A stretch of 26,577 nucleotides of DNA, taken from the IMG/VR virus record IMGVR_UViG_3300012920_000216, positions 1-26,577 of that record; one strand, written 5' to 3'. A program made the translations under genes and the position numbers. Positions 6,763-21,130 of this stretch are shown here, piece by piece. The DNA is from a virus. The stretch's first letter is position 1. Each line of letters starts with the position of its first letter. Below the pieces are notes generated by a model, which searched no databases, was not told the DNA's origin, and saw nothing but the letters and a program-made list of their open reading frames with translations.

Positions 6763-9563
6763 TAAAATTGGCGTGATCTGCCAGGGGGTATTGCGGCAAC
6801 ATATGGTTCTAAAAAATATGCTCCTCTCGTATATTCTTCGTCTCTCATCCAAACATATCCTTTTTCAGAGGACGATAGAAATTCTGTAATACCTTCATCA
6901 TTTTTCTCAGTTTTCTTTGAAGTAAAACTTATTGTGGAAACAAAATGTTCTGGAATTATCTTTCCGAAAACTAAGGGTTCAAATTTATCTCTAACATTTA
7001 TTCTTAAAGTTGTTGATCTTTCTGGGGGCGCTCTAGAAATAGATATTTCATCAATATACCCTGTTACATTTTTTATGGGCTTATCGGTATCTTTAACTTT
7101 GGTAGAAATTAAATTAATAATTTCAAGAATACCTTTTCCTATTTTAAACGCGTGTAGTTCTTCAGATGCATCAATACTATTTGTTAGTTGTTTACTTTTT
7201 CCTGCAAGTAATAACTTTACTCTAAGATTATTTTTTTCTACAAAAGGTTTTTTAATTAGTCGATCGAATTCATTATCATTAAGGTCGACACGATGTTGAA
7301 CTTCGCTAGGCATAAATTTAAAAAATACATCTGCTCTTCCGCCTGTTCCATCTCTATCTTTACTACTTACTCCTAATCTTTCTGCTATTAACTTAACCTT
7401 TGCAGGTAAAACTTCTTCTTTAAAATCAACTTCTTCATTGTGTAATCGAGTCTGTATAAACTTTAGTACTCTTTCAAATTTATCATTTACAGCAAAATTA
7501 GTTCCAAGTCTAAAGTCTTTTATTATATCAATATCACTTATTAAAAAGACTCTTTCTGTAATTAATCTATCTCTACTTACATTGACATTATTTCGTAGAT
7601 TTATTTTATTTATTACATCAATATTTGGTTTTTTAGAAATAAAGTCTGGCAGTTTTAATTTATTTGGTATCGGCTTTCCTAAATTTTTATGAGTCTCACT
7701 AAAAGATTTTGCTACATCATTTTGTATTCTAGACTTTGATATATCAATTAACGAGTTTCTTGCATCAAAAATTTCAAATAAAGTTCTATTAATTTTAAAG
7801 TTTTCTCTATCAATAAGCTTTAGTTTATTCAAAACTTCTTTTTCTACCCTTAATTCTTTTTCTGTTTTTGTCTCTGCTCGATTTGTAGTTAAAATAAAAT
7901 TAGCTGGATTAAGTAGTAGTGAGCTTGTAAGTTCTGCATCTTCTCCTAAATGTTCATTAACTTGTACATCTTTTCTAACAATATCTATTGTCTTTATCTT
8001 GTGGGGGACAATAGGTTTAGTTACTTTTTTATTCGTAGTAGAAGCAGCTAAAAGTTTATCTACATTTATTAAGGCTTTTGGATTTAAAATTAGCTCTCTG
8101 TATTTTAAAATTTGTCGAAGATGTTTTTTAAGTTCATCATCTACACTATCGTCAATAGTAATATTTTCTGTAGAAATATTTAGTGTTTGACTAAATTGTA
8201 AAAGCTCGTCTACCTTTAATCTATTTAATACTAGTCTTGCTTTCGGAGATAGAGCTTGTGATGCTAAACGTACTCTATCAACAGTTAGTGTCGTTCCTTT
8301 TTCTAGTTTTACTCCTGCATCTAAAAATACTGCTAAGTCGCCAGGACCCGGTAAGCTAACTGAAGCATTCGCCGGTAGAGTTCTAGCAGATATTACTTCT
8401 ACTGCACCTGACGGATCAAAGGGCGTATTTATTCCTATATTAGTTGGAGGAAAAGATCCATTTTTAACATCATAAAAATACAGATTACCACTTCTATTAA
8501 CTACATTTGTAAAGCTACCGACGCCGGGAATGATAAACGTACCTGACTCTGGTATTCCGGTATACGCCTCGTCGTTAAATAGAAAAGGCCCGTGTTGTTG
8601 GCGGTACCCCGGCATCCACCAGTATACAAATCCAGTAAAACCGTCTGCAAATTCACCAAATCTGTTATTTATCTCATCTCTGTTCCAAAAAGGAAAAAAT
8701 CCGTTTTGGCCTCCAAAAATAAAAGAAGGATCTAAGGGAATTACTCCATTTTCATCTCCATACAATACATGTTTATTCGATAAATCACCTAGAGGATCGT
8801 TCGGATTTTGGCTATTAATTGTATTAAAGTACCCACCTGCAGGGGCTTTCCAATAACCTGTTCCAAAAGTGCCTGCTGGTAATATAGGCAGTCCAGCGGG
8901 TTGAGTGGTGTGTACAAATTCGTACGCATCTTCAGGCTGGTTTGAAAGAGGGTGTGATGCAGTTACATCTCTACCTAATCCAGCAATCATTCCGTAATCT
9001 TTAGAAACTCTATTTGCTAGCGCATAGTTAGGAAATTCAGTTCCCGGTTTTAATCCTCTATGAATATCTACCTTATACCCTTTTGATATAAAATTAATTG
9101 AATTTGCTAAGTCTCTATATTTTTTACTTTCAAAAATGTCGTCTACAGTATCACTAATTTTAAATATATCTAGTAAAGATTTTTCTTGCAATACTCTTGT
9201 TCTAGAAATTATTTGTAAAAGCTCTTCCTTAAGAGTAGCATATTTTGTAGTTACTAAATCATCTATATTTACAAAAGAAAGATATTTAGTGGATTGAACT
9301 CTTTCTACTACATCTGTTAGCGTTACAGTATTTGTAATTTCTTCTCTAAGAAGTATAAATACATCTAGTAATACATCAAATAAACCAGGAGTATTAGATG
9401 TTACATTAAACAAAAGAGGCGCATTGCCTCCATCTACTCCTGAAACAATTGGGTCATTTGATAGGGTCGTAGACCCCATTCGCAACCCATTTGTAGTAAT
9501 GTTTTGAAATCTAGGATCGTCTTTTGCCTGAGCTAATAATATTTTTATATCAAAATCAGCCAT
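6762..9563 (-). CDS. Large virion-associated protein of unknown family, 933 aa
   Basis: I do not recognise this protein with confidence. Three parts are visible. Residues about 50-185 are Leu/Ile/Asp/Lys-rich with degenerate repeats (LLQIISRTRVLQEKSLLDIF, DTVDDIF). Residues about 186-425 are rich in Gly, Pro, Phe, Trp and Tyr (GFVYWWMPGYRQQHGPF). Residues about 426-860 return to Lys/Ile/Asn/Asp-rich repeats of roughly 20 residues (FKINRTLFEIFDARNSLIDI, VFLISDIDIIKDF). The C-terminal motif (EEYTRGAYFLEPYV, ending SRQF) faintly recalls the end of repeat-rich structural proteins in marine phages; this is memory, not a search. ATG at 9563 follows the upstream TAA with no gap and no clear ribosome binding site, so translation is probably coupled. 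Position among fibre genes suggests a tail-tip component. Confidence 0.88.
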   Translation of the reverse strand: MADFDIKILLAQAKDDPRFQNITTNGLRMGSTTLSNDPIVSGVDGGNAPLLFNVTSNTPGLFDVLLDVFILLREEITNTVTLTDVVERVQSTKYLSFVNIDDLVTTKYATLKEELLQIISRTRVLQEKSLLDIFKISDTVDDIFESKKYRDLANSINFISKGYKVDIHRGLKPGTEFPNYALANRVSKDYGMIAGLGRDVTASHPLSNQPEDAYEFVHTTQPAGLPILPAGTFGTGYWKAPAGGYFNTINSQNPNDPLGDLSNKHVLYGDENGVIPLDPSFIFGGQNGFFPFWNRDEINNRFGEFADGFTGFVYWWMPGYRQQHGPFLFNDEAYTGIPESGTFIIPGVGSFTNVVNRSGNLYFYDVKNGSFPPTNIGINTPFDPSGAVEVISARTLPANASVSLPGPGDLAVFLDAGVKLEKGTTLTVDRVRLASQALSPKARLVLNRLKVDELLQFSQTLNISTENITIDDSVDDELKKHLRQILKYRELILNPKALINVDKLLAASTTNKKVTKPIVPHKIKTIDIVRKDVQVNEHLGEDAELTSSLLLNPANFILTTNRAETKTEKELRVEKEVLNKLKLIDRENFKINRTLFEIFDARNSLIDISKSRIQNDVAKSFSETHKNLGKPIPNKLKLPDFISKKPNIDVINKINLRNNVNVSRDRLITERVFLISDIDIIKDFRLGTNFAVNDKFERVLKFIQTRLHNEEVDFKEEVLPAKVKLIAERLGVSSKDRDGTGGRADVFFKFMPSEVQHRVDLNDNEFDRLIKKPFVEKNNLRVKLLLAGKSKQLTNSIDASEELHAFKIGKGILEIINLISTKVKDTDKPIKNVTGYIDEISISRAPPERSTTLRINVRDKFEPLVFGKIIPEHFVSTISFTSKKTEKNDEGITEFLSSSEKGYVWMRDEEYTRGAYFLEPYVAAIPPGRSRQF

Positions 9564-9746
9564 TTAGATCACTATATTTATTTGATTTGATTTCACCTCT
9601 GTTAATTTTGGGGAATCTTCTATCAAAGAAAAGAATACCGCAGTATTAGTTTTTCGAGTTGCTAAGTCTGGAGTTGTTAAAGTAGCTTTTTTTAATACAG
9701 GACTATTTCCTGCATTTGCTCCAAACAGTATTAAATTCTTTTTCAC
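9564..9746 (-). CDS. Small protein of unknown function, 60 aa, GTG start
   Basis: The frame starts with GTG at 9746, which overlaps the stop of the 115-aa gene as GTGA, and ends with TAA directly before the ATG of the 933-aa gene. There is no in-frame ATG to use instead at this junction. The protein is MKKNLILFGANAGNSPVLKK followed by a Thr/Lys-rich stretch and SNQINIVI at the end. It has no signal peptide, membrane helix or known motif that I can see. The perfect fit between two coupled neighbours supports it as a real gene. It may be a small connector or assembly partner of the flanking proteins; that is inference. Confidence 0.7.
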   Translation of the reverse strand: MKKNLILFGANAGNSPVLKKATLTTPDLATRKTNTAVFFSLIEDSPKLTEVKSNQINIVI

Positions 9747-10090
9747 GATCCAAAATCATCTCGGACTTTTATATCAATTAACTCAAAGACACTCATTACC
9801 TCTCCATTTGCAAGAGTAAATTCAATTTCTCCTTCATAAAAACCTTCATCTGGCCCCGGGCCGCTTGAAGGTGCCAAGAAACTAGAAAGAGGAAAGACTA
9901 GAAGCCCTGCTGGTAGATTAGAGGAAACTGTATCTAAAGGAATAGTTGCTAGTATTGAAGTCGTAGCTTTTTTACGGATACGTAAATTTATGGTGCCAGA
10001 CCCTACAAAAGCCTCTCCAGTATCTGAGCGAGTTACAGTCGCCTTTAGCTGCGGTCCTGTATCTCCTTTTACTACTTGAATTATATCCAT
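9743..10090 (-). CDS. BppU-like N-terminal-domain protein, 115 aa (probable tail-tip adaptor)
   Basis: The protein begins DIIQVVKGDTGPQLKATVTR, then INLRIRKK, then PAGLLVFPLSS, and ends GFYEGEIEFTLANGEVMSVFE...IKVRDDFGS. This pattern (a GDTaPql start, a strand with charged residues, then 'GlyeGEveft..dG...f...i.v') matches the small immunoglobulin-like domain found alone in many phages and at the N-terminus of BppU-type baseplate upper proteins. It therefore probably acts as a structural adaptor at the tail tip; no enzyme residues are seen. ATG at 10090 is preceded by an AGGAG 13 bases away, a rather long spacing. It is the first gene after the internal promoter and leads the distal block. 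Family assignment is from motif recognition and is moderate. Confidence 0.82.
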   Translation of the reverse strand: MDIIQVVKGDTGPQLKATVTRSDTGEAFVGSGTINLRIRKKATTSILATIPLDTVSSNLPAGLLVFPLSSFLAPSSGPGPDEGFYEGEIEFTLANGEVMSVFELIDIKVRDDFGS

Positions 10091-10183: not shown

Positions 10184-10753
10184 TTATATGAAATCTGGGC
10201 CGGAGTACCATTGAACTAAAGAGTATCTAACTCCTTTTGTTACTGGAAACACTCTATGTTTTAAAGAAGAACCAAAAATTATTATTGTACCCTGTACTTT
10301 TCCTCTAGGATGCCAACTAAAAATTTCATTTTCATCCCAATAATCTCTAATATGTAACTCTCCTCCTTCATAAGATGAGGGATCAGAAAGCTGCACTGTT
10401 ACAGATACTTTTCTTTGAATATCTCGAGCTATATCACAGTCTCTATGCCAATCGTAATGCTCTCCTTCTTCATAAACAGTAAACTGAGGTTTTTCTCTCG
10501 AAGTAAGACTAAAATTCCAATTATTATAGAGATTTGCTCGAGATACGTAGTTAAAAAGTAAGTTATCTACCCACCCATTTTCTGGAAGCCAGCAGAGTTT
10601 TGATTTTCGCATTTTTTCATTTACAAGCCCCTCCGCATCTATTGTGCCCTTTATCATTCCTTGTTCATGGCCTTCTTGTATAATTTTATTACAAATTTCA
10701 GAAGAAAGCTCCCCTTCCCATAAAGAGAAGGGAGTTTGTATTAATTTTTTCAT
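10184..10753 (-). CDS. 2-oxoglutarate/Fe(II)-dependent oxygenase (prolyl 4-hydroxylase-like), 189 aa
   Basis: The protein is predicted to hydroxylate a substrate using O2, 2-oxoglutarate and Fe(II). The metal triad is visible: H103 and D105 in DWHRD, and H166 in SLKHRVFPV. R176 (KGVRYSL) is in the usual place for binding the 2-oxoglutarate carboxylate. QLSDPSSYEGGELHI and GTIIIFGSSLKHRVFPV are typical of the P4Hc/PKHD type. Length suits the small single-domain phage members. The ATG at 10753 overlaps the stop of J as TAATG, so synthesis is probably coupled to J. Its stop lies about 18 bases before the -35 of the internal promoter. Such enzymes are common in marine phage genomes but their targets are mostly unknown. 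The substrate could be a tail protein, a host protein or a small molecule; the sequence does not decide. Confidence 0.93.
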   Translation of the reverse strand: MKKLIQTPFSLWEGELSSEICNKIIQEGHEQGMIKGTIDAEGLVNEKMRKSKLCWLPENGWVDNLLFNYVSRANLYNNWNFSLTSREKPQFTVYEEGEHYDWHRDCDIARDIQRKVSVTVQLSDPSSYEGGELHIRDYWDENEIFSWHPRGKVQGTIIIFGSSLKHRVFPVTKGVRYSLVQWYSGPDFI

Positions 10754-13700
10754 TAAGTAAGTCGTCCAAGTATAACTCTAGGATTACCACTCGCATCATT
10801 TACTAAAATGCGAGGTCCTGTTCCTCCCGAGCCCGAACTACCGTCCATAAATATCGAACTAGTAGCAGTGGCACTACTAGAAGATATTTCTAGCTGTTCG
10901 GCACCGATTGCACCAGCTTTTATTATGTCTGCGGTTACCAAAACTTGAGAAACCCAAGAATTGCCACTTCGTCTAAATGCTGCTTGAGTCCCTGAAGAAT
11001 TTTCAACAATTGCTACAGCCCCTTCGACATAAGTGCCTGCAGGAATACTGCCAGACGATGGCGGGCTTGCATTCTGCTGATTTACATACAAAAAACCGCT
11101 TGAGCCATCAGAGCCGTTAGTTCCAACAAATTTTACATACGTTGCTTGGTGCATTGCAGCAGTAAGAGTAGTAGGTTTAGTACCTGTGTACTCAAAAAAA
11201 GTAACATACTCATTGGAGCCCGGCGTAAAGGAAAGATGAGAAGTACTACTAGGGTTTGCTCTATCCGAATAAATAGGTATTACTCCTTCAGTATCTCCAT
11301 CAGTTCCATCAGTTCCAATAAATCTTACAAAACCGCTGCTGCTTGTAGTAGTGGGTTTAGTTCCTGTGTACTCTACATATTTTACGAATTGTCTGGCGCC
11401 TCGTGAAGTAGAAACACTTCCTCCACTAGCCGCAGTAGAGTAGAAAATTACTACACCCTGACCAGCGTCACCATCATCACCATCATTTATAGTTATTGAA
11501 TTACTTGAATTACCGTCACTGAAAGTAACAGTAGTACTATTTCCACTAGAGGTAATACTGCTAATTGTTACTGAACCTCCCGGAGGTCCGGGCACAGTAG
11601 AAGCGGCTCCAGGCGGTCCGGGCGGTCCCCTAAGCTGAATGTTTGGGGCTACTAATTCTATCGAGCTGGTAGGGCCTGCAGTAAATTTAAAATAATTAGT
11701 ATTATCTCCGATATAAACATTGCCAAGGCCGTCCATGTAAAAACCTGCATCACTATCAGTAAAGCTTGTTTTATTAGCACTGTAAATTCTACCAACTGAA
11801 TTAGTGCTGTTTCCAAGTTTTAAATTGCTCGCTACATTAAGGCTATTTGATATTGTTGTATTTGCTGTGAGCGTATCTGCAGAAAGAGTCCCATTTACAA
11901 TTGCACTTCCATCAATAAATTCAGTTACTTTTGAACTAAAGCTAGAAGCATTTACAGGGCCATTACTACCACTATTATCCGTTCTAGTGCCTGTATAGAC
12001 TCGTGTCGCCGCATATGCAGGAGTATTACCTGTAGCTGCTTGAGTCAATGTAACCCTATCATTAGGAGAGATGAAGCCGTCTGTAGAAGCTCCCATTACT
12101 AGTCCTGCGGCTGTTTGAGCTGCTGCAGCACTTAAAGTACCTGCCCATGCCGCTCCAGTTGTTGTCCCTACTGAGCTAAAGGTAAAGGTTGCTCCATCTC
12201 GTACTGTTTGTTTAACTTTTGCAAATCTTAAAATGTTACTTTGAATTAATGCATTACTATCGCCTAAATCTCTAATTTCCACTGTTAAGGACGCTGTAGT
12301 TATAGAAGCCGTAGTAAGAATTGCAGAATTACTACTACTAATAGTAACTATTCCCGTACTGCTAACAGACCCTACACAGTTTACTGCTCCTCCGGAAGGA
12401 AAAGTTACAGAAAACTTTTTGTCTCCTGCTGACCCATTTGCAGCAAAATTTGAAACAGTATCAAAAGTATAAGACTGTCCTCCCTTGCTTACGGTAAAAC
12501 TAGTTGCAAAATCATTAGCACTGCCACTAACAATTCCATTTTCATCTGCAATAAATAAGTGAGAGGAATTTGTGCCGGCTGAATTATAAGCATCTTCTCC
12601 ATCAGTTCCAGGAGTTGCAGGAGCAGCATCTTGACCAGCAAGAGATTTAAATATTGTTTGAGTTATTGACTTCTCTTGAATATCTCCTAAAATATCTCTG
12701 CCTTTTATAGTCCAAGTAATACTTTCATTTTGCCCAGATAATTCACCCAGTCTTTCCGCATTATCAATACTAATAATTTGATTTCCGTTTGTTCCTCCTG
12801 AATAGGTTATATTTCCTGCTCTTAAATTAGTATCTGTATCAGTTACAGATTCAATATACCATTCTCCATTTTCAATATCTGCATCGTTTGCAGGCCCTCC
12901 GCCTGAATTTGCAGTTGCATTGTTTGTTCCTATGTATTTTCCTACTGTACTTCCAAAGAAAACCTCCATTTGTGCTGCGGTTCCGGGAATTATAGTTCCT
13001 GAAGTTGCGCCATCCGAAGCTGCTGCTACTGCTACCGTATTGTTAGGTAGAGAGATTGACATAGCAGGAGATCCCGGCCCTAACTTTAATATTGGAGTGC
13101 TATCGGTTGCAGAAACAACTTCAGGGCTTACATTTAAAGAAACTTCAACTTCTACAGAGCTTATACTTTTTTGGGTATTTGTACCTGCTATATTTACAGT
13201 AAAATTACCCGCTACAGAATTAGGAGGTGTTATTACTAAGGTATTTGAAGTAGACCAATCTTTAAGAACATCTCCTGCTTGATTTTTGAATCTATATTTT
13301 GCATCGCTTGGAAAATTAAATGCTTGTGCTGTAAGAGTTATCGCTGATGCATTATTAGTTAAAGAGAAACCAGTATTAGAAGAATTATATACTACTGTAT
13401 TATCATTTGCAGTGAGTGCAACAGTTCTTCCTTCTGTTCCAGAAGCTCCGTCTTTTACTCTTACTAAATTAAAATCTTTTGTTAATGTTTTATCCGTATT
13501 GGAAGGATCAAACTTCTCTCTAACAGTTACAGTAAATTCTAAAGGACTACCGTCTCCATATGGAAAAGTTTCTGCTGCATTGGTAGATGCTCCTGCAAGT
13601 TGTTTTGTAAATCTTTTAGAGACTACATCTACATCTACAAAATCTGAGTCAGCTACAAAAGTAGTGCCCGTTGTTGCATTGAATCCTGTTCCTGTTACTT

Positions 13701-16700
13701 TTGCTTGAGGAGTTTCGAACCCAATAGCCTCTCCTGTTAAAGTTATATTAGCATAAGTTGTTTGAAGAGGGTACTGTGCTGGATTAGTATTAGGTATTGC
13801 AGTGCCGTCATAATTAAGAGTAGCAACATTAGAATCTAGTACCAAGCTTCTAGGTAGTACTAAATCTGCGTTTAGTGTGCAGAAGTTATCAAAAGATCCG
13901 CCCGCAGTAAGTTTTCCTATAAGAAAATCAACACTGAAATCTGGGCTAAGCTCATCTCTATAGTGATCGGACTCTACAAAAACCCCATCATAAAGTCCTC
14001 CAATTGAAGTTGTTGCAGAAGTGATTCTACCGCTGGCAGCGCTTCCTGCGACTCCAGCACTCAAACCACTGGGAGCAAGGGTTTCAAAATACTGATTACC
14101 TGATGTAACCACTTCTGTAATTACTCTTTTAGAGTGTCCAGAGGAAGCAGTATTAAAGTTAGAGTTTGAAAATCCTTGAATTGATACATCGTCCCCTACT
14201 TCAAAGGGGATGGTTGCCGGAGTAAAGTACCGTATTTTTATAACACCATTATCATTTATGGATTCTGCAGAAGTAATATTATGAGTTTTATATTCAAAAA
14301 CTCTATCGATGAACATTACAGTATTACTTTCTATATAAGAAACTTTTGCTGCAAGTTTTTCAGAAAATTTTATTACGCTTGTAGCAGAGTAGTCCCCAAG
14401 AAAATTTGTTCCTACTCCTACTACTTTTGCAGATCCTTGATCAACTTTTACTTTTCCTTGTTTAGACTGCCAAATATCAAGATTACCGAAAGAGTAGTTT
14501 CCTGAATCGGTTGGATCATTTGTATTATATTGTTTAGTTGTAGATTTTATTTGGTCATACCAATAATCCACATTGAGAACCGGATCTGCAATATGATTAA
14601 TTAGTCTTATTGAAGAACTACCATTGTAATCTTTTAAAAATACAAAAGCGCTATTTTTATTTAAAAGACTAGAGCTCCACCAAGACTCTGATGTAAATTG
14701 TCCTAAAAGCGAATAATCTACTTCACCTGTAGCGATATTTACATTTGTAGACCCTGAATTAGACCTATCTCTAAAGGAACGAAATGTTACAGGATTTTTC
14801 TCATATGAGAAAGTTTTAGCCCCTACCGCAGTGCCAATTACTCTTGTCGAATTAACTATTCCTCCAACTAATAAACCTTTATCTCTATCGTTATTTCCGC
14901 CAAAAGTATCAAAAATTTCTACAACTGTTACCGCAGGTCTAGAAACTCTTCCTAAATCACTAAAAGAAGAAACAGTAAAAGTCCATTTTCCTTCAGGAAT
15001 ATTATCATATTCCATAGAAGTTGTTCCAGTGGTTCGACTTTCTTCGAATCCTGGAATAGTTGTAGTAACTTCATAACCTCTTATATTTGAAGTATTAGCA
15101 GGGGGATCCCATGTCAATACTATTTCTTCCCCCGGACTTTCAAACTTAGGGGCACGAAGTATTCGCAGCCCCGTAGGAGGCGGCAATGAAGTGTTAGGAT
15201 CGGGATCTGGAAAAAGAGGATCTGGTAGTGCAGTAGTAAAGTTTGTTTCAATAGTATCAAACTTAGTATTGTAGTGCTCTACAGCACTAATAGCAATTAC
15301 ACCTTTTGCTTCTTCTACAATTTTTAATATTTTATATTCTTTATAAGATGCTTCTGTTTCTAATTCATCTTTTAGTGCCCAAATTTTGCCAATATTTGCC
15401 GCTGCTACGTCAGAGGCAGAAAGCTCAGTAGTAGTTAGAGTATCTCCTAAACTATTTCCAGAGGCTCCTGATTGTTGAAAAGTAACTTCTTTTGTATGCG
15501 TTTCTGAGGCATCTCGTAAAAGTAAAGGAATTCCTATTAAAGATCTCCTAGTTGAATTAGTTGTGTTAGCCGGCCCTCCTGCGCAAGCGTTAGATACAAA
15601 CTTATCATAATCTTCATCTGTCCAAGCGCCTCCGGCACCAGACCCTCCTACGTTGATTTCTACAGGGTTGCCTTGAGGGTCAAACCATTTAGTTATAGCC
15701 GTTCCTTCAGTAACAAATCCTTGCCCTGATATATCACTTGATTTTTGTAAAATAACTTTTCGTTCTGCCAAAAGCAAAGCGATAGTATAAGCTCCTGCTC
15801 CTCCAACCGCTGTAGTAGTTCCGTCTAAATCTTCTGCTAAATTTCTATCAAAAACTACAGTTGTTACACCATTGCTGTCTCGTACTGCACTTTTTATTCT
15901 TCCGCCATAAGAATATCCAAAGTCATGATTATCTTGAACATTTATTAGATCTCCGGGGGCGAGAAAAGCACCATTAATACTTGTGCTAAAAGTTACAACT
16001 TCTACTTGATTTAAAGCTGTCCAAAGTTTCCATCTTCCATAACGAATTGCTTGCCCTTCTGAAGTGCATCCAAAAGCCACAGACTCAGATTTTATTACTT
16101 GGCCCGTTTTAACAATATTGTCTCGATCCTCTACAAATAAAGGCTCGATTTTATATTCATTATTTGGATTGTTCCACTTTACTACTACTTGATTTGTTCG
16201 TGTTTTTGTACCTGTAAATTCATATTGAAAATTGCCATTAATTACATTTGATCTATTAAAGTTATAAACTGCTACTTTTGGTTCATCTATAATCGGCGTT
16301 ATTTGGCCATCCATCCAGTATAGCATACCACGAAATATAGTTGCCATATCTTTAAGAACTTTATAAACATCAACAGCTTTTTGTAAGTATAAATTAGCAG
16401 TAAATCTAGGCTCTACTCCTCCTTTTCCATCAGATACTAACTCGTCACAGTAACGAGCAATTTTATACAAAGAAAATACATCAATATCGGCGTCACGAAC
16501 ATACTCTCCGACCCCATATCTATTATTTGTTAATATATCATGAAAAATCCAAGCAGGATTATTTGTGTATTCTTTATGATCTGTTAGTTCTCCATTAAAT
16601 AATCCAGTATATAATCTTGATGCTTCTGGAAAAGATCCAAGCTGCTCTTTCCCCTGTAATCCTCCAGATGCAGGCAAAGAGTCTAAAAACTCTTGTGTGA

Positions 16701-18510
16701 TCATCCCAAACTTTTCACGAGGAGTATAATTTTTAGGAATACGAACTTTTAAGCCATAGCACTCATAACTTCTTTTTGGTAAATTTGTAAACTGTCTCGT
16801 ATTGAACGAAACATGAGCCATAGAAGTATAAGGATAATTTAGTCTTTCTTTTATAACTGCAAAAGCATTAGGAATTTGAGAGCCTTGAACTGCTTGTATT
16901 TTAGGCACTCCAGGACTGTCATCTTTTTGACGATAGTCTATTGATAGCCCTGCTCCTCCAGCATAAGTAGACCATGAATGCGCTCTTGCAGAAGGAGTAT
17001 CATTATTATTTTCGCTTTCTGTTATTCTAACTATTGTCAGCTTAAACCCAGAAAAAGGTTGATACTGTTCTAAATTTATTGTATGGGTAAAAGCAATTCC
17101 TGCAACAGATTTTGCTCCGTGTGCAAAAATGGGGGTACCTTGGGCAGTAACATCCCTATTTGTTCCATTAATATTTACAACACCATCTACTGCAACGCCT
17201 CCGCTCACAAAGGCTGTAACACCTCCGCTTATGCTAGTTTGGCTACCTGTCTTTTTTAGAGTTGTACTGAGAGCTGCACTTATTTCACCCGTGCCCTCTA
17301 AAAATCCTACATCTGTATAATTACCTGTTACTCCATTTTTTATTGCTAAATGAATAACATAGGCAGCTCCTGCCTGTTGTTTTTTTGCATCATCCATATT
17401 CATGGCGTACAAACCGCCAGGATATTTAAAAAGCAAATGTACAGTATCTACGCTTCCTGCTGCTGCGCCATCATAGGTAATAGTTTGAGGTATTCCAGTT
17501 TTTAACTCTCGAATAGGTGGAAGGCCAATAGAAGTGTGCCCCACAGTACCGCTTATACTTGTTAAAGCATTCTGATCTTTTGTTCCGGGCACAAACTGAT
17601 ACCCTGAAGATCTAATTTTATTTGTCTTAGGGTTTGAATGAGAAGAATCATCGTACACTACAGGAGTTATAGAAAATGTTTTATTACTAAAAGAGTATAC
17701 AGGACCTGCTGTAGTTATTTCAGTTCCTGAAATACTTGAAATTTTTATAAATTGAGAGAATTTTAATTTTAGATTGCTTCTTCCATTACTATCCGTCTCT
17801 TTTATCCACTCATATCCATTATCTAACGTTCCAATTTTAAGTTTAATAGTAATTTGAGTAGTAGTAAATGCTGAAATTGTACCTGTTATTTTTCGATCTT
17901 CATCTTTTGAAAATACAGTTACGAGGCCATCTCCACTACTAAGATTGTCTAGCCGAGACACCTCTCCAACTGTGTAATTTGTAACCATGTTACTTTTAGT
18001 ATTTGAACTAATAACAGAGTCAGCAAAATCTCCTGTGAGTACCAGAGTATAAGTTGTTGCTTGCTGAGCCCAAGGATTAGGACTAGCGTCAGAAGAGCTA
18101 CTTGCACTAAATTGTATAGGAGCTTCTCCTGGCACAGCAGGAGATGCTTGAGCTTGATCTTCAAACTCAAATACATTGTGAAGAAGTATGTATCTTTTTC
18201 CTGTTGTTTCTCCTTCTGTACTGACATTATAGTCAAAGAGTTCATCAGCATACTCGTTTATGTGTATTAATCGAGTATTAGTAGAGTCTCTTGATACTGT
18301 TTCTCCCTCAACGGAACTATAGCCTATTTCACTATCATCATGTATACTATCATTGTTGAGAAAAATACTTTTCCCACCATGAACAAGACCCGCAATAGGA
18401 CCTTCAGAAATTATATCTGTAATTCCTACTGCTTGTTCTGTGTGGCCTTGTAGAGCTGTACTATAGCCATCAGTAATATTTCGTGGAATGTTAACTGGAC
18501 CCGTTACCAT
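10753..18510 (-). CDS. J: Tail tip / host specificity protein J homologue, 2,585 aa
   Basis: This is the central tip hub and fibre of a lambda-like tail. The N-terminus (LQGHTEQAVGITDIISEGPI, GLVHGGKSIFLN) has the J pattern. YPYTSMAHVSFNTRQF (about residue 560), NNPAWIFHDILTNNRYGVG (about 648-668) and GRWKLWTALNQVEVVTFSTS (about 820) are J hallmarks. A fibronectin III-like domain lies at about 1108-1197 (GEEIVLTWDPP, IRGYEVTTT). Beyond it are beta-rich repeats, GFYMDGLGNVYIGDNTNYF and a GPPGPPG stretch at about 2292. Two related domains with VEYTGTKPTT / FEYTGTKPTT follow, then ADIIKAGAIGAEQLEISS near the end. It is more than twice the length of lambda J (1,132 aa). Extra sequence sits near residues 90-540 and after the Fn3 domain. 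A GGAG ribosome binding site precedes the ATG at 18510; the stop overlaps the oxygenase start. Confidence 0.95.
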   Translation of the reverse strand: MVTGPVNIPRNITDGYSTALQGHTEQAVGITDIISEGPIAGLVHGGKSIFLNNDSIHDDSEIGYSSVEGETVSRDSTNTRLIHINEYADELFDYNVSTEGETTGKRYILLHNVFEFEDQAQASPAVPGEAPIQFSASSSSDASPNPWAQQATTYTLVLTGDFADSVISSNTKSNMVTNYTVGEVSRLDNLSSGDGLVTVFSKDEDRKITGTISAFTTTQITIKLKIGTLDNGYEWIKETDSNGRSNLKLKFSQFIKISSISGTEITTAGPVYSFSNKTFSITPVVYDDSSHSNPKTNKIRSSGYQFVPGTKDQNALTSISGTVGHTSIGLPPIRELKTGIPQTITYDGAAAGSVDTVHLLFKYPGGLYAMNMDDAKKQQAGAAYVIHLAIKNGVTGNYTDVGFLEGTGEISAALSTTLKKTGSQTSISGGVTAFVSGGVAVDGVVNINGTNRDVTAQGTPIFAHGAKSVAGIAFTHTINLEQYQPFSGFKLTIVRITESENNNDTPSARAHSWSTYAGGAGLSIDYRQKDDSPGVPKIQAVQGSQIPNAFAVIKERLNYPYTSMAHVSFNTRQFTNLPKRSYECYGLKVRIPKNYTPREKFGMITQEFLDSLPASGGLQGKEQLGSFPEASRLYTGLFNGELTDHKEYTNNPAWIFHDILTNNRYGVGEYVRDADIDVFSLYKIARYCDELVSDGKGGVEPRFTANLYLQKAVDVYKVLKDMATIFRGMLYWMDGQITPIIDEPKVAVYNFNRSNVINGNFQYEFTGTKTRTNQVVVKWNNPNNEYKIEPLFVEDRDNIVKTGQVIKSESVAFGCTSEGQAIRYGRWKLWTALNQVEVVTFSTSINGAFLAPGDLINVQDNHDFGYSYGGRIKSAVRDSNGVTTVVFDRNLAEDLDGTTTAVGGAGAYTIALLLAERKVILQKSSDISGQGFVTEGTAITKWFDPQGNPVEINVGGSGAGGAWTDEDYDKFVSNACAGGPANTTNSTRRSLIGIPLLLRDASETHTKEVTFQQSGASGNSLGDTLTTTELSASDVAAANIGKIWALKDELETEASYKEYKILKIVEEAKGVIAISAVEHYNTKFDTIETNFTTALPDPLFPDPDPNTSLPPPTGLRILRAPKFESPGEEIVLTWDPPANTSNIRGYEVTTTIPGFEESRTTGTTSMEYDNIPEGKWTFTVSSFSDLGRVSRPAVTVVEIFDTFGGNNDRDKGLLVGGIVNSTRVIGTAVGAKTFSYEKNPVTFRSFRDRSNSGSTNVNIATGEVDYSLLGQFTSESWWSSSLLNKNSAFVFLKDYNGSSSIRLINHIADPVLNVDYWYDQIKSTTKQYNTNDPTDSGNYSFGNLDIWQSKQGKVKVDQGSAKVVGVGTNFLGDYSATSVIKFSEKLAAKVSYIESNTVMFIDRVFEYKTHNITSAESINDNGVIKIRYFTPATIPFEVGDDVSIQGFSNSNFNTASSGHSKRVITEVVTSGNQYFETLAPSGLSAGVAGSAASGRITSATTSIGGLYDGVFVESDHYRDELSPDFSVDFLIGKLTAGGSFDNFCTLNADLVLPRSLVLDSNVATLNYDGTAIPNTNPAQYPLQTTYANITLTGEAIGFETPQAKVTGTGFNATTGTTFVADSDFVDVDVVSKRFTKQLAGASTNAAETFPYGDGSPLEFTVTVREKFDPSNTDKTLTKDFNLVRVKDGASGTEGRTVALTANDNTVVYNSSNTGFSLTNNASAITLTAQAFNFPSDAKYRFKNQAGDVLKDWSTSNTLVITPPNSVAGNFTVNIAGTNTQKSISSVEVEVSLNVSPEVVSATDSTPILKLGPGSPAMSISLPNNTVAVAAASDGATSGTIIPGTAAQMEVFFGSTVGKYIGTNNATANSGGGPANDADIENGEWYIESVTDTDTNLRAGNITYSGGTNGNQIISIDNAERLGELSGQNESITWTIKGRDILGDIQEKSITQTIFKSLAGQDAAPATPGTDGEDAYNSAGTNSSHLFIADENGIVSGSANDFATSFTVSKGGQSYTFDTVSNFAANGSAGDKKFSVTFPSGGAVNCVGSVSSTGIVTISSSNSAILTTASITTASLTVEIRDLGDSNALIQSNILRFAKVKQTVRDGATFTFSSVGTTTGAAWAGTLSAAAAQTAAGLVMGASTDGFISPNDRVTLTQAATGNTPAYAATRVYTGTRTDNSGSNGPVNASSFSSKVTEFIDGSAIVNGTLSADTLTANTTISNSLNVASNLKLGNSTNSVGRIYSANKTSFTDSDAGFYMDGLGNVYIGDNTNYFKFTAGPTSSIELVAPNIQLRGPPGPPGAASTVPGPPGGSVTISSITSSGNSTTVTFSDGNSSNSITINDGDDGDAGQGVVIFYSTAASGGSVSTSRGARQFVKYVEYTGTKPTTTSSSGFVRFIGTDGTDGDTEGVIPIYSDRANPSSTSHLSFTPGSNEYVTFFEYTGTKPTTLTAAMHQATYVKFVGTNGSDGSSGFLYVNQQNASPPSSGSIPAGTYVEGAVAIVENSSGTQAAFRRSGNSWVSQVLVTADIIKAGAIGAEQLEISSSSATATSSIFMDGSSGSGGTGPRILVNDASGNPRVILGRLT
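11105..11450 (-). repeat. Duplicated domain in the J C-terminus
   Basis: Two successive units of about 55-60 residues encode VVIFYSTA...FVKYVEYTGTKPTT...FVRFIGTDG and VIPIYSDR...YVTFFEYTGTKPTT...YVKFVGTNG. A shorter, weaker relative may follow (FLYVNQQN, about 10980-11104). Each is bounded by short Gly-X-Y strings (GDDGDAGQG, GTDGTDGDT, GTNGSDGSS). They are probably repeated beta domains along the distal fibre. Confidence 0.8.
11571..11640 (-). other. Collagen-like Gly-Pro-Pro segment in J
   Basis: On the minus strand this encodes RGPPGPPGAA, a short break, then PGPPGG (residues about 2291-2313). Triplets GPP-GPP-GAA and GPP are short but follow the collagen Gly-X-Y pattern. Such stretches often occur in trimeric phage fibres. 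It matters here because the next gene is a prolyl-hydroxylase-like enzyme. Confidence 0.85.
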
Positions 18511-19198: not shown

Positions 19199-19895
19199 AT
19201 CTATATACTCTATTTATAAACTTGGCCCAAAAAGGGTACAGATTTTCTCTGCACGATAAGCGATGTACTGCATGGTGATAAAAAATATCATTTCCTAAAT
19301 AAACACCACAATGATTAGCTACATTAGAGTGTACACAAAAAGTAATCACATCATTTTTTTGAATATTTTCTATTGGAACTTCTTGACCTCCCCACTCCTT
19401 TACTATTTCAGGAGAAAAATAATCTAGATCTTTGTTGAACCAATTATCTTCAAAAGGTATTCTGGGAGAAAGCTCAATATTCTGACTTTTTAAATAATCT
19501 CTCATTGCTTCAAAACAGTCTTTTATACCAAACTCGTATTCTCTGCCATATAGTTCTGTTCTATCTTTTACGGGCTTTAGTATATTTAAATCCATTTCAG
19601 GGTATGAAAAAATAAAAAAAGGAATACCTAATGTGTTACAGTTATTAACATCCGTTTCACTTGCTTCAGAAGTTGCATCAGGATGGCTGTGAACTATTCC
19701 AACTATGTCTGAAGTTCTACTTATTTTTAGATACTCTTTTGAGTCAAAGATAAAAGTTTCTTCGGGATTTTCTGCAACGTTTTTACAAGGAATCCAATAG
19801 TCTTTTCCTTGTTTTACAGCTATAACTCCGCAGGCTTCTTTTGGGTATTCTCTAAAAAAATGAGGTTCGATTTCATGTAAAAAATCTAATATCAT
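19188..19895 (-). CDS. K: Tail tip peptidase K homologue: JAMM plus NlpC/P60, 235 aa
   Basis: Two enzyme-like domains are fused as in lambda K. The N-terminal JAMM/MPN part has E20, then HSHP with H69 and H71, S79 and D82, a complete HxH-x7-S-x2-D zinc motif. The C-terminal NlpC/P60 part has C127 in KDCFEAMRDY and H195 in NHCGVYLGN, consistent with a cysteine peptidase; the third residue is not certain (H207 or H208 are candidates). Such tip proteins are thought to cut peptidoglycan stems during genome entry or to process tip components. Both active sites look intact. The ATG at 19895 overlaps the stop of L by ATGA, and the end overlaps I by 11 bases. Confidence 0.94.
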   Translation of the reverse strand: MILDFLHEIEPHFFREYPKEACGVIAVKQGKDYWIPCKNVAENPEETFIFDSKEYLKISRTSDIVGIVHSHPDATSEASETDVNNCNTLGIPFFIFSYPEMDLNILKPVKDRTELYGREYEFGIKDCFEAMRDYLKSQNIELSPRIPFEDNWFNKDLDYFSPEIVKEWGGQEVPIENIQKNDVITFCVHSNVANHCGVYLGNDIFYHHAVHRLSCRENLYPFWAKFINRVYRYVA

Positions 19896-21130
19896 CTAAA
19901 GCCTTTGGTTCCTGGGAACCCTCCAAATGGAAGTGAGATCTGATTGTTGAATATAGCACTGGGAATTGCATGTTTAACGCCATTTGCGTCTGTTTTAATA
20001 GCAGTGACTCCTGTTTGACTAATTGCTGTTCTAATATCTGACTGATAACGAGCTTTGCAGGAAGCTATGAGTTTTCCGCATACATCTCCTCTAACCCAAG
20101 ATGCCGGATTTGTTTCAGGGTCGTTTGTTTGTCCGGCCGCCCCTGATGGATTTTGAGAAACTACTGCTTTATAGACTTCTCCATTTTTAAAAGCATAAGT
20201 AGCTCTTCTTGCATCTCCATCAAAAATAGTAACAGGAAGTGAGTTTGTCCAAAGTTCATAAGTTCTTACAATTCTCCAATGTCCGCTTTTTTCTGTTGGA
20301 GTATTGTTCATAGTATCTATAGTTGCTTGATAAAGCAAAGGACTATGGAAAACAATATCATTAGTATTGTAAACTGTAGAACCACTATATGTTAAATCAC
20401 TTAAATTAGTGGGCAAACACTCTCTAAATATTAAAGGTTCATCGTCTATTGTAAAAAATTGAAAAGGTCTGTCACCATTATGGTCTCTCATTTTAGAGTC
20501 CCAGTGACACGCACTTTTAACATCTGTTTTATCTAGCCTCCAACCCTTATAAGACCAAGGACAATATTTTCCTACTACAACTCTATTAGGTACTTTTACT
20601 CCTGTTAATTCAAAAGGGCTTGCTAGTTCTAATTCAACTGAGATGGACGTTTTTCCTGAAATTCTATCGATAACATACTCACTTCTTGGAAATTGAAAAG
20701 AGTTAGAAGGAGTAGCACTTTCGCTCGATAACTTTACATATTTTTTAAGAGTTCTTCTATATACTAGTCTCTTTCCTAATAAATCATCAAGCACAAAATT
20801 AGAAATATTAAGAGGAGCAGCAGCTAACTGAGTTCTTAAAGGATTATTATTTCTAAAAAGAGTTTCAACATTTGGTATTGTTAATCTCGGTCTAGCAGAT
20901 GCTCCATCGCTGTGCCTTTCTATTCCTTCTATAGCGATTGGCATTGGTTCATATTCTTCACCGTCAAAAGTTATTGTTTCGTCCGTATCATAAGAATGAA
21001 AATTTAAATAAATTGACGAAGTTCCTGTAGTTGTATCTCCAGGAATCCACTCCAGCTGATATAGTAAAATATAAGCTTCTGTAGCATCAAGCTCTAATGC
21101 TTGAATTTCTTGTGAGATATTATCTGTCAT
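19892..21130 (-). CDS. L: Minor tail protein L homologue with an internal insertion, 412 aa
   Basis: This is an L-type distal tail protein. The N-terminal domain has YLNFHSYDTDETITFDGEEY and ARPRLTIPN as in the family. The C-terminal domain carries four cysteines in the usual order, C190 (GKYCPWSYKG), C208 (SACHW), C351 and C358 (CGKLIASCKARY), and the LPFGGFPG end. In lambda L the matching cysteines bind an iron-sulfur cluster. The protein is much longer than lambda L (232 aa). Much of the excess is about 140 residues between C208 and C351, containing two segments like carbohydrate-binding modules (YNTNDIVFHSPLLYQA...HW and YAFKNGEVYKAVV...SW). ATGA overlaps join it to M and K. Cluster binding is inferred from the family. 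Confidence 0.93.
   Translation of the reverse strand: MTDNISQEIQALELDATEAYILLYQLEWIPGDTTTGTSSIYLNFHSYDTDETITFDGEEYEPMPIAIEGIERHSDGASARPRLTIPNVETLFRNNNPLRTQLAAAPLNISNFVLDDLLGKRLVYRRTLKKYVKLSSESATPSNSFQFPRSEYVIDRISGKTSISVELELASPFELTGVKVPNRVVVGKYCPWSYKGWRLDKTDVKSACHWDSKMRDHNGDRPFQFFTIDDEPLIFRECLPTNLSDLTYSGSTVYNTNDIVFHSPLLYQATIDTMNNTPTEKSGHWRIVRTYELWTNSLPVTIFDGDARRATYAFKNGEVYKAVVSQNPSGAAGQTNDPETNPASWVRGDVCGKLIASCKARYQSDIRTAISQTGVTAIKTDANGVKHAIPSAIFNNQISLPFGGFPGTKGFR

Follow-up and report, generated by a model that had tools for sequence, protein, structure and literature searches.

A gene for a small 2-oxoglutarate (2OG)/Fe(II) oxygenase lies directly behind the central tail fibre gene J of a marine phage known from the IMG/VR virus record IMGVR_UViG_3300012920_000216, whose 26,577 bases were analysed at full length and are called the window. 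With a probability of roughly 0.6, the oxygenase is a phage enzyme that hydroxylates the collagen-like region of the fibre protein encoded upstream, and one occupant of a modification slot. This reading is based on gene order, active-site residues, the predicted fold, a homologous collagen tract in related fibres and the co-occurrence of enzyme and tract across independent lineages. The features concerned are:

10184..10753, minus strand: 2OG/Fe(II) oxygenase, 189 amino acids, prolyl-hydroxylase-like predicted fold, occupant of the slot (open reading frame (ORF), profiles, model)
10439..10447, minus strand: iron-binding motif H103-R-D105 of the oxygenase (36-row alignment)
10226..10258, minus strand: H166 (iron) to R176 (2OG) of the oxygenase (36-row alignment)
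10753..18510, minus strand: J, a lambda-J-type central tail fibre or tail-tip protein of 2585 amino acids, proposed substrate (ORF, profiles)
11572..11628, minus strand: J residues 2295-2313, GPPGPPGAASTVPGPPGGS, a short proline-bearing collagen-like tract
11089..11628, minus strand: J residues 2295-2474, short Gly-X-Y stretches amid other sequence; the related loci L001, L002 and L003 have an unbroken collagen tract here
10756..11055, minus strand: C-terminal module of J, last 100 amino acids, also present in the oxygenase-bearing fibres L010, L014 and L015 of a second scaffold
9743..10090, minus strand: gene for 115 amino acids, the downstream bound of the slot

An IMG/VR search with the oxygenase yielded 76 relatives, of which 67 were examined and nine truncated loci excluded; further scans used the J domain, the C-terminal module, aligned oxygenases and the second scaffold. 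Among 255 fibre-matching loci, 109 had a 3'-complete fibre and a bounding gene within 6 kb. This bounding gene of about 110-126 amino acids, LtfC/BppU_N-like in L010 and with the 115-amino-acid counterpart in the window, follows the fibre in all 109, and the space between the two was defined as the slot; empty slots measure 59-261 bases, others at least 466 bases. Removal of 18 near copies left 91 non-redundant loci: 59 with an empty slot, 17 with this oxygenase, six with other enzymes and nine with other genes (none with more than 4 prolines), which were counted in neither group. Near relatives were kept within the 17 oxygenase loci (L278/L279/L282 and L172/L327), and six of them (L273, L278, L279, L282, L283, L327) were found via the fibre search and not via the enzyme. 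The six other-enzyme labels were assigned by hand from domain matches. L276, L305 and L307 have an oxygenase of a second type, 2OG-FeII_Oxy_4, and the glycosyltransferase-like proteins match Glycos_transf_1 (L285, L287) or Capsule_synth (L125, L276, L305). A DUF6445/phrog_1644-like protein precedes the oxygenase in the slot of L283 (13564-14115, matched) and of L278 (13804-14370, recognised by eye).

The oxygenase co-occurs with prolines in the Gly-X-Y runs of the adjacent fibre. At least 4 such prolines were present in 17 of 17 oxygenase loci versus 6 of 59 loci with an empty slot (Fisher p 2.6e-12), at least 6 in 15/17 versus 1/59, and at least 8 in 15/17 versus 0/59 (Fisher p 4.8e-14); these three thresholds were chosen with the data already known. 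The two oxygenase loci below 6 prolines were the window and L018. All six loci with other enzymes had at least 8 prolines, giving 21 of 23 for any enzyme versus none of the 59 empty slots. Relatedness was handled by trees of the conserved fibre domain, with the tract excluded. The J tree contained 5 changes of the oxygenase state; for at least 4 prolines, about 4 of 5 independent pairs varied the same way and none the opposite way. The tree of the second family gave five pairs on supported branches, about 4.8 the same way and none opposite. Pooled, the independent pairs stand at about 9 to 0, each tree alone being too small for p 0.05. Gly-X-Y run length was rejected as the linked trait: a run of at least 4 gave in the J tree 2.6 pairs the same way and 0 opposite out of 5, a weaker signal than the proline count because proline-poor runs also adjoin empty slots.

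Comparisons of sister loci show the same linkage. L002 has oxygenase and collagen, L082 neither; their J proteins match for the most part and diverge at the C-terminus, and a 115-amino-acid gene of the slot-bounding kind follows in both contigs. In L165, located on the same contig as L082, a 115-amino-acid gene of this kind stands directly after J, and collagen and oxygenase are both absent. Joint absence of collagen and oxygenase recurs in L014 versus L264/L265, which belong to the second fibre family, and in L278 versus L288.

Several features of the window had been described in the original prediction, and they were borne out. The start of the oxygenase overlaps the stop of J, with one base common to the TAA of J and the ATG of the enzyme (TAATG). 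The proposed H-x-D...H...R residues are intact: H103, D105 and H166 of the iron triad and the basic 2OG residue R176 are invariant in the 36-row alignment. J, which matches Phage-tail_3 (PF13550) with 75.1 bits (cut-off 23) and phrog_31 with an E-value of 1.7e-114, carries the predicted GPPGPPG and PGPP with proline in Y position, the latter as PGPPG, and GPP begins at residues 2295, 2298 and 2308. Three GPP contrast with 0.41 expected from the composition, a count reached in 13 of 2000 shuffles of J, and GPPGPPG itself appeared in 0 of 2000. The shorter Gly-X-Y strings noted in the prediction are present, but the longest run, of 4 triplets, is unremarkable alone (359 of 2000 shuffles). They become meaningful because relatives hold 28-37 consecutive triplets at the homologous place, between VAPNIQL and GSSGFLY where J has GPPGPPG (L001 36, L002 37, L003/L004 28). 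The Pfam Collagen family (PF01391) was found in L001 and L002 with 55.2 and 57.8 bits, above the cut-off of 27.2. Two near relatives exhibit a clear preference for proline in Y over X position, L001 with 13 versus 5 and L003/L004 with 16 versus 1; in L002 the counts are 7 versus 6. GPP occurs in the fibres of the window, L001 and L002, and is absent in L005. In the window clade, Asp, Asn and Thr are abundant in the tracts as well.

A second fibre family comprises L010, L014 and L015, which align poorly with the N-terminal part of J, together with L172/L173; parts of it resemble J distantly, with phrog_31 matching in L014 and L173. L010, L014 and L015 have the C-terminal module in common with the window, with 30-32 % identity over the last 100 amino acids; this end of the fibre is exchanged as a module. 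Each of the five fibres has Gly-X-Y/proline tracts, broken up in L014 and L015, and a member of the same oxygenase family comes after the fibre; in L172/L173 a 122-amino-acid protein, which in L172 matches a tail-assembly chaperone, stands in between. The fibre of L273 (record G019) contains 225 Gly-X-Y triplets, and lysine takes the Y position in 42; more reading frames of this record, of 2224 and 1212 amino acids, also match collagen. In the L278 fibre, the last approximately 125 amino acids after the collagen include a Hint/intein-like stretch (CVSPDSLVEL...NDHPMF), named by eye and perhaps self-cleaving.

The oxygenase was assigned to 2OG-FeII_Oxy_3 (PF13640) with 57.3 bits (cut-off 27, E 3.3e-15). 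It aligns with the C-terminal part of PHROG 61 of marine phages (E 1.5e-37), a profile that extends over a glycosyltransferase as well as an oxygenase part; its annotation, '2OG-Fe(II) oxygenase', carries no substrate. Matches to the window oxygenase were obtained in 351 of 50,697 phage records, mostly cyanophages. A model built from an alignment of 36 sequences reached a mean predicted local distance difference test (pLDDT) of 89.9 and a predicted template modelling score (pTM) of 0.88, and has the double-stranded beta-helix of prolyl 4-hydroxylases (P4H). The best Foldseek match was PPHD, a prolyl hydroxylase of Pseudomonas putida. In a structural aligner, the collagen prolyl hydroxylase vCPH of the chlorella virus PBCV-1 (5c5t) was first with a Z-score of 18.5 (2.5 A over 166 residues), tied with PPHD (18.1), a Trichoplax prolyl hydroxylase (18.1) and the HIF-type PHD2 (18.0), followed by algal P4H 3gze and PiuC (16.9 each). 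The modelled fold favours a prolyl hydroxylase and makes no choice among collagen, HIF-like and EF-Tu-like substrates. The single 189-amino-acid domain lacks a glycosyltransferase domain and is no PLOD-type fusion, and no ORF of PLOD-type size was found in the 17 oxygenase slots, judged by size only.

PLOD-type genes were found elsewhere, near collagen with lysine in Y position. The fibre of L286 has 70-105 Gly-X-Y triplets, depending on the counting rule, with 32-46 Y-lysines; 389 bases past it an ORF at 8074-9315 (plus strand), cut by the contig end, matches Glyco_transf_25 (E 1.6e-24) and GT_PLOD (E 3e-46). Two Synechococcus phages, S-CAM9 and S-8S56, and the Roseobacter phage CRP-6 carry such a gene, in each case no more than 1.6 kb downstream of a fibre gene; these fibres have 55-97 triplets, with lysine in Y position 22-26 times:

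S-CAM9, KU686205.1, 34413-36257: PLOD-type gene (GT25 and GT_PLOD), deposited as hypothetical protein
S-8S56, OQ504984.1, 171526-173391: PLOD-type gene (GT25 and GT_PLOD), deposited as hypothetical protein
CRP-6, MK613348.1, 33029-34798: PLOD-type gene (GT25 and GT_PLOD), deposited as hypothetical protein

An oxygenase part likely follows the PLOD-type glycosyltransferase: PF13640 scored 18.6 bits in the CRP-6 protein, under the cut-off of 27, and had no match in the S-CAM9 and S-8S56 proteins, which align with that of CRP-6. S-CAM9 encodes two further 2OG oxygenases between the fibre and the PLOD-type gene, one of them matching the window enzyme. The PLOD-type survey covered 26 loci, namely 23 relatives including L286, the one among the 23 with a domain scan, and the three named phages; L286/L345 and L353/L354 are near copies. 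In 19 of the 26, the fetched stretch included a collagen ORF that has 10 or more lysines in Y position, in 16 cases near and upstream (two on the opposite strand) and in three starting 7-8 kb downstream. Seven were without such collagen, with less than 2 kb of upstream sequence in L347, L355 and L359, 2.7 kb in L365, but 9 kb in L360, L364 and L366. At least 3 Y-lysines occurred in one of the 17 oxygenase loci (L273), in 0 of 6 with other enzymes and in 0 of 59 with empty slots. As far as the sequences tell, enzyme type and collagen residue pair up, and linkage alone is no explanation for this. It appears probable that tailed marine phages own a swappable collagen-modification slot by the central fibre gene, with enzymes matched to the proline or the Y-lysine of the nearby collagen. 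Taken jointly with the slot, the same degree of belief applies to its set of enzymes: stand-alone prolyl-hydroxylase-like oxygenases, a second 2OG family and glycosyltransferases, and elsewhere PLOD-type enzymes with an apparent oxygenase part. In L356 and L357 the PLOD-type relative adjoins an opposite-strand collagen ORF of 160-170 triplets.

These results bear on the proposal of the original prediction that the enzyme hydroxylates J as a dedicated pair linked to GPP triplets, for which it had named a survey of oxygenase against collagen in the adjacent fibre and, as the refuting outcome, no correlation. The survey was positive. Hydroxylation of J is favoured by the co-occurrence with proline-bearing collagen tracts and by a fold nearest to prolyl hydroxylases, but the link to GPP or Y-proline as such was lost: L005/L006 possess the oxygenase with 16 X-prolines and no Y-proline, and GPP or Y-proline was rejected as a required feature. 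J and the enzyme are no isolated case but one version of a slot, which also accommodates another oxygenase family and glycosyltransferases.

Besides L005/L006, further observations weigh against hydroxylation of the fibre by the oxygenase. The window tract is short, with three GPP, and split into short stretches, and PF01391 had no match to the window J at E 0.001. L018 and L222, the poorest pair, have near-identical J domains and similar short tracts, and only L018 has the oxygenase. Collagen-like tracts stand beside empty slots in L160, L296 and L298 (Asp/Asn-rich), L169 (6 prolines) and L128 (4 prolines), and with a run of at least 6 as the trait the second family gave 3.9 pairs the same way and 0.2 opposite. 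The residue for 2OG binding is Arg176, Arg in all 36 rows and not Lys; Lys binds 2OG in collagen P4Hs, vCPH among them, and Arg is the residue of the PHD type. Sequence profiles place YbiX/PiuC nearest among solved proteins. Most IMG/VR relatives of the oxygenase are located elsewhere, with no Gly-X-Y run of at least 6 in the fetched flanks; non-fibre neighbourhoods among the loci listed resembled, by eye, a replication-type region. With a giant fibre ORF directly upstream in 11 of the 67 relatives, a place beside collagen for every family member was ruled out. No Gly-X-Y run exceeds 7 triplets up to 9 kb from the oxygenase in the named phages HTVC023P, HTVC033P, S-SM1 and P-SSM7. PF01391 matched 5 of 20 records searched whole, a count that, the records being fragments, points neither way; in one of the five, G008 (L031), the collagen ORF is far from the oxygenase. 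Bacterial genome contigs provided two loci only, with no collagen-like tract seen near either and no match of the L187 enzyme to the profile used. Collagens of E. coli prophages do without a hydroxylase, according to the available part of PMC3368898.

Modification of the collagen-like fibre not at proline but on Asp/Asn, Thr or Lys, or one that initiates glycosylation, is an unlikely alternative that draws on the Asp, Asn and Thr of the window-clade tracts, the 42 Y-lysines in L273, the glycosyltransferases among the slot occupants and the family member adjoining the PLOD-type gene in S-CAM9. Asp/Asn-rich and nearly proline-free tracts as in L160 and L298 have empty slots, however; at least 4 prolines are found in every oxygenase locus and at least 3 Y-lysines in a single one, and the nearest folds are prolyl hydroxylases. 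Quite improbable is a hitch-hiking in which the collagen-bearing fibre end and the adjacent oxygenase move as one recombination block with no catalytic link. A swapped C-terminal module would carry any neighbour along, but four enzyme kinds (this oxygenase, 2OG-FeII_Oxy_4 and two glycosyltransferases) all meet at least 4 prolines (23/23 versus 6/59 empty), PLOD-type relatives pair with Y-lysine collagen in the 19 of 26 loci, and the close sisters L276 and L283 differ in the slot enzyme and have the collagen in common. The least probable alternative is a host-directed auxiliary enzyme, either a PPHD-like EF-Tu hydroxylase or a PiuC/YbiX-like iron-uptake hydroxylase. In its favour, the fold of PPHD, whose structure was solved with EF-Tu, scores as a tie, YbiX/PiuC is best by sequence profile and numerous members of the family are not located near fibres. 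It does not account for the slot, for the overlap of the oxygenase start with the J stop or for collagen and oxygenase being absent together in sisters; PiuC is not singled out by structure, and the PKHD-type YbiX/PiuC equivalog of NCBIfam gave 66.4 bits versus a cut-off of 143, with three other models also below cut-off.

J and the enzyme most likely share one message, with translation probably coupled. If the oxygenase acts on the fibre, it would hydroxylate Gly-X-Y prolines of the nascent, unwound J with 2OG, oxygen and iron of the host, before or during the winding of three J chains into a triple helix. In animal procollagen, too, prolines are hydroxylated in the unwound chain and the trimer forms afterwards. 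The triple helix would be stabilised and the distal fibre become stiffer or more stable; J as substrate, proline as target and this effect on stability are what we infer from the arrangement. With the short tract of the window, the enzyme may act on few prolines only. In phages with glycosyltransferases the hydroxyl groups might serve as attachment points for sugars.

Collagen modification made by viruses is known from the PBCV-1 enzyme (PDB title of 5c5t, cited in the part of PMC9301287 available); new here is the assignment of a phage fibre as putative substrate. The window enzyme resembles vCPH, its top structural match (profile match E 6.7e-7), as a small stand-alone viral 2OG oxygenase, but it comes from a tailed phage, overlaps with its gene that of the presumed fibre substrate, shares about 23 % identity and has Arg for 2OG. 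The Mimivirus enzymes L230 and R699 act on virus-encoded collagen, as stated in the accessible portion of PMC9546862. This is likewise viral modification of viral collagen, with GT25/GT_PLOD domains related to those in L286, S-CAM9, S-8S56 and CRP-6; however, Mimivirus is a giant virus of eukaryotes that uses lysine chemistry, and the window enzyme has no glycosyltransferase domain. Proteins of the PHROG 61 type resemble EGLN3 in the excerpt available of the Phold paper (PMC12774648). J shares the Gly-X-Y tract inside the fibre with phage collagen-like tail fibres (phrog_1806 and others). The accessible text of PMC3368898 (2012) describes bacteria and viruses as lacking prolyl hydroxylases for collagen Y-proline and their collagens as having no Y-proline preference; unlike that description, the tracts of L001 and L003/L004 prefer it. 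In the literature searched, with few subscription papers or preprints and texts available in part, no phage oxygenase or PLOD-type enzyme was tied to a collagen-like phage fibre; the nearest, a 2022 survey (PMC9301287), mentions viral P4H genes and tail-fibre collagen together, their use, in the part available, 'remains cryptic'. Marine phages often carry 2OG oxygenases like this one, with no known target, and the residue-matched pairing of enzyme and fibre offers a concrete candidate substrate. If true, it would be a counterpart of animal collagen maturation in viruses of prokaryotes, and a possible source of compact enzymes for hydroxylated or glycosylated collagen made in bacteria.

The surrounding genes on the minus strand of the window form a lambda-like tail region with M-like (PF05939), L (PF05100), K-like (JAB and NlpC/P60) and I-like (phrog_32) genes and J. 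The L-like protein (19892-21130, minus strand) has, after the L domain, a weak match to the carbohydrate-binding CBM_5_12, below the cut-off with an E-value of 1.2e-4.

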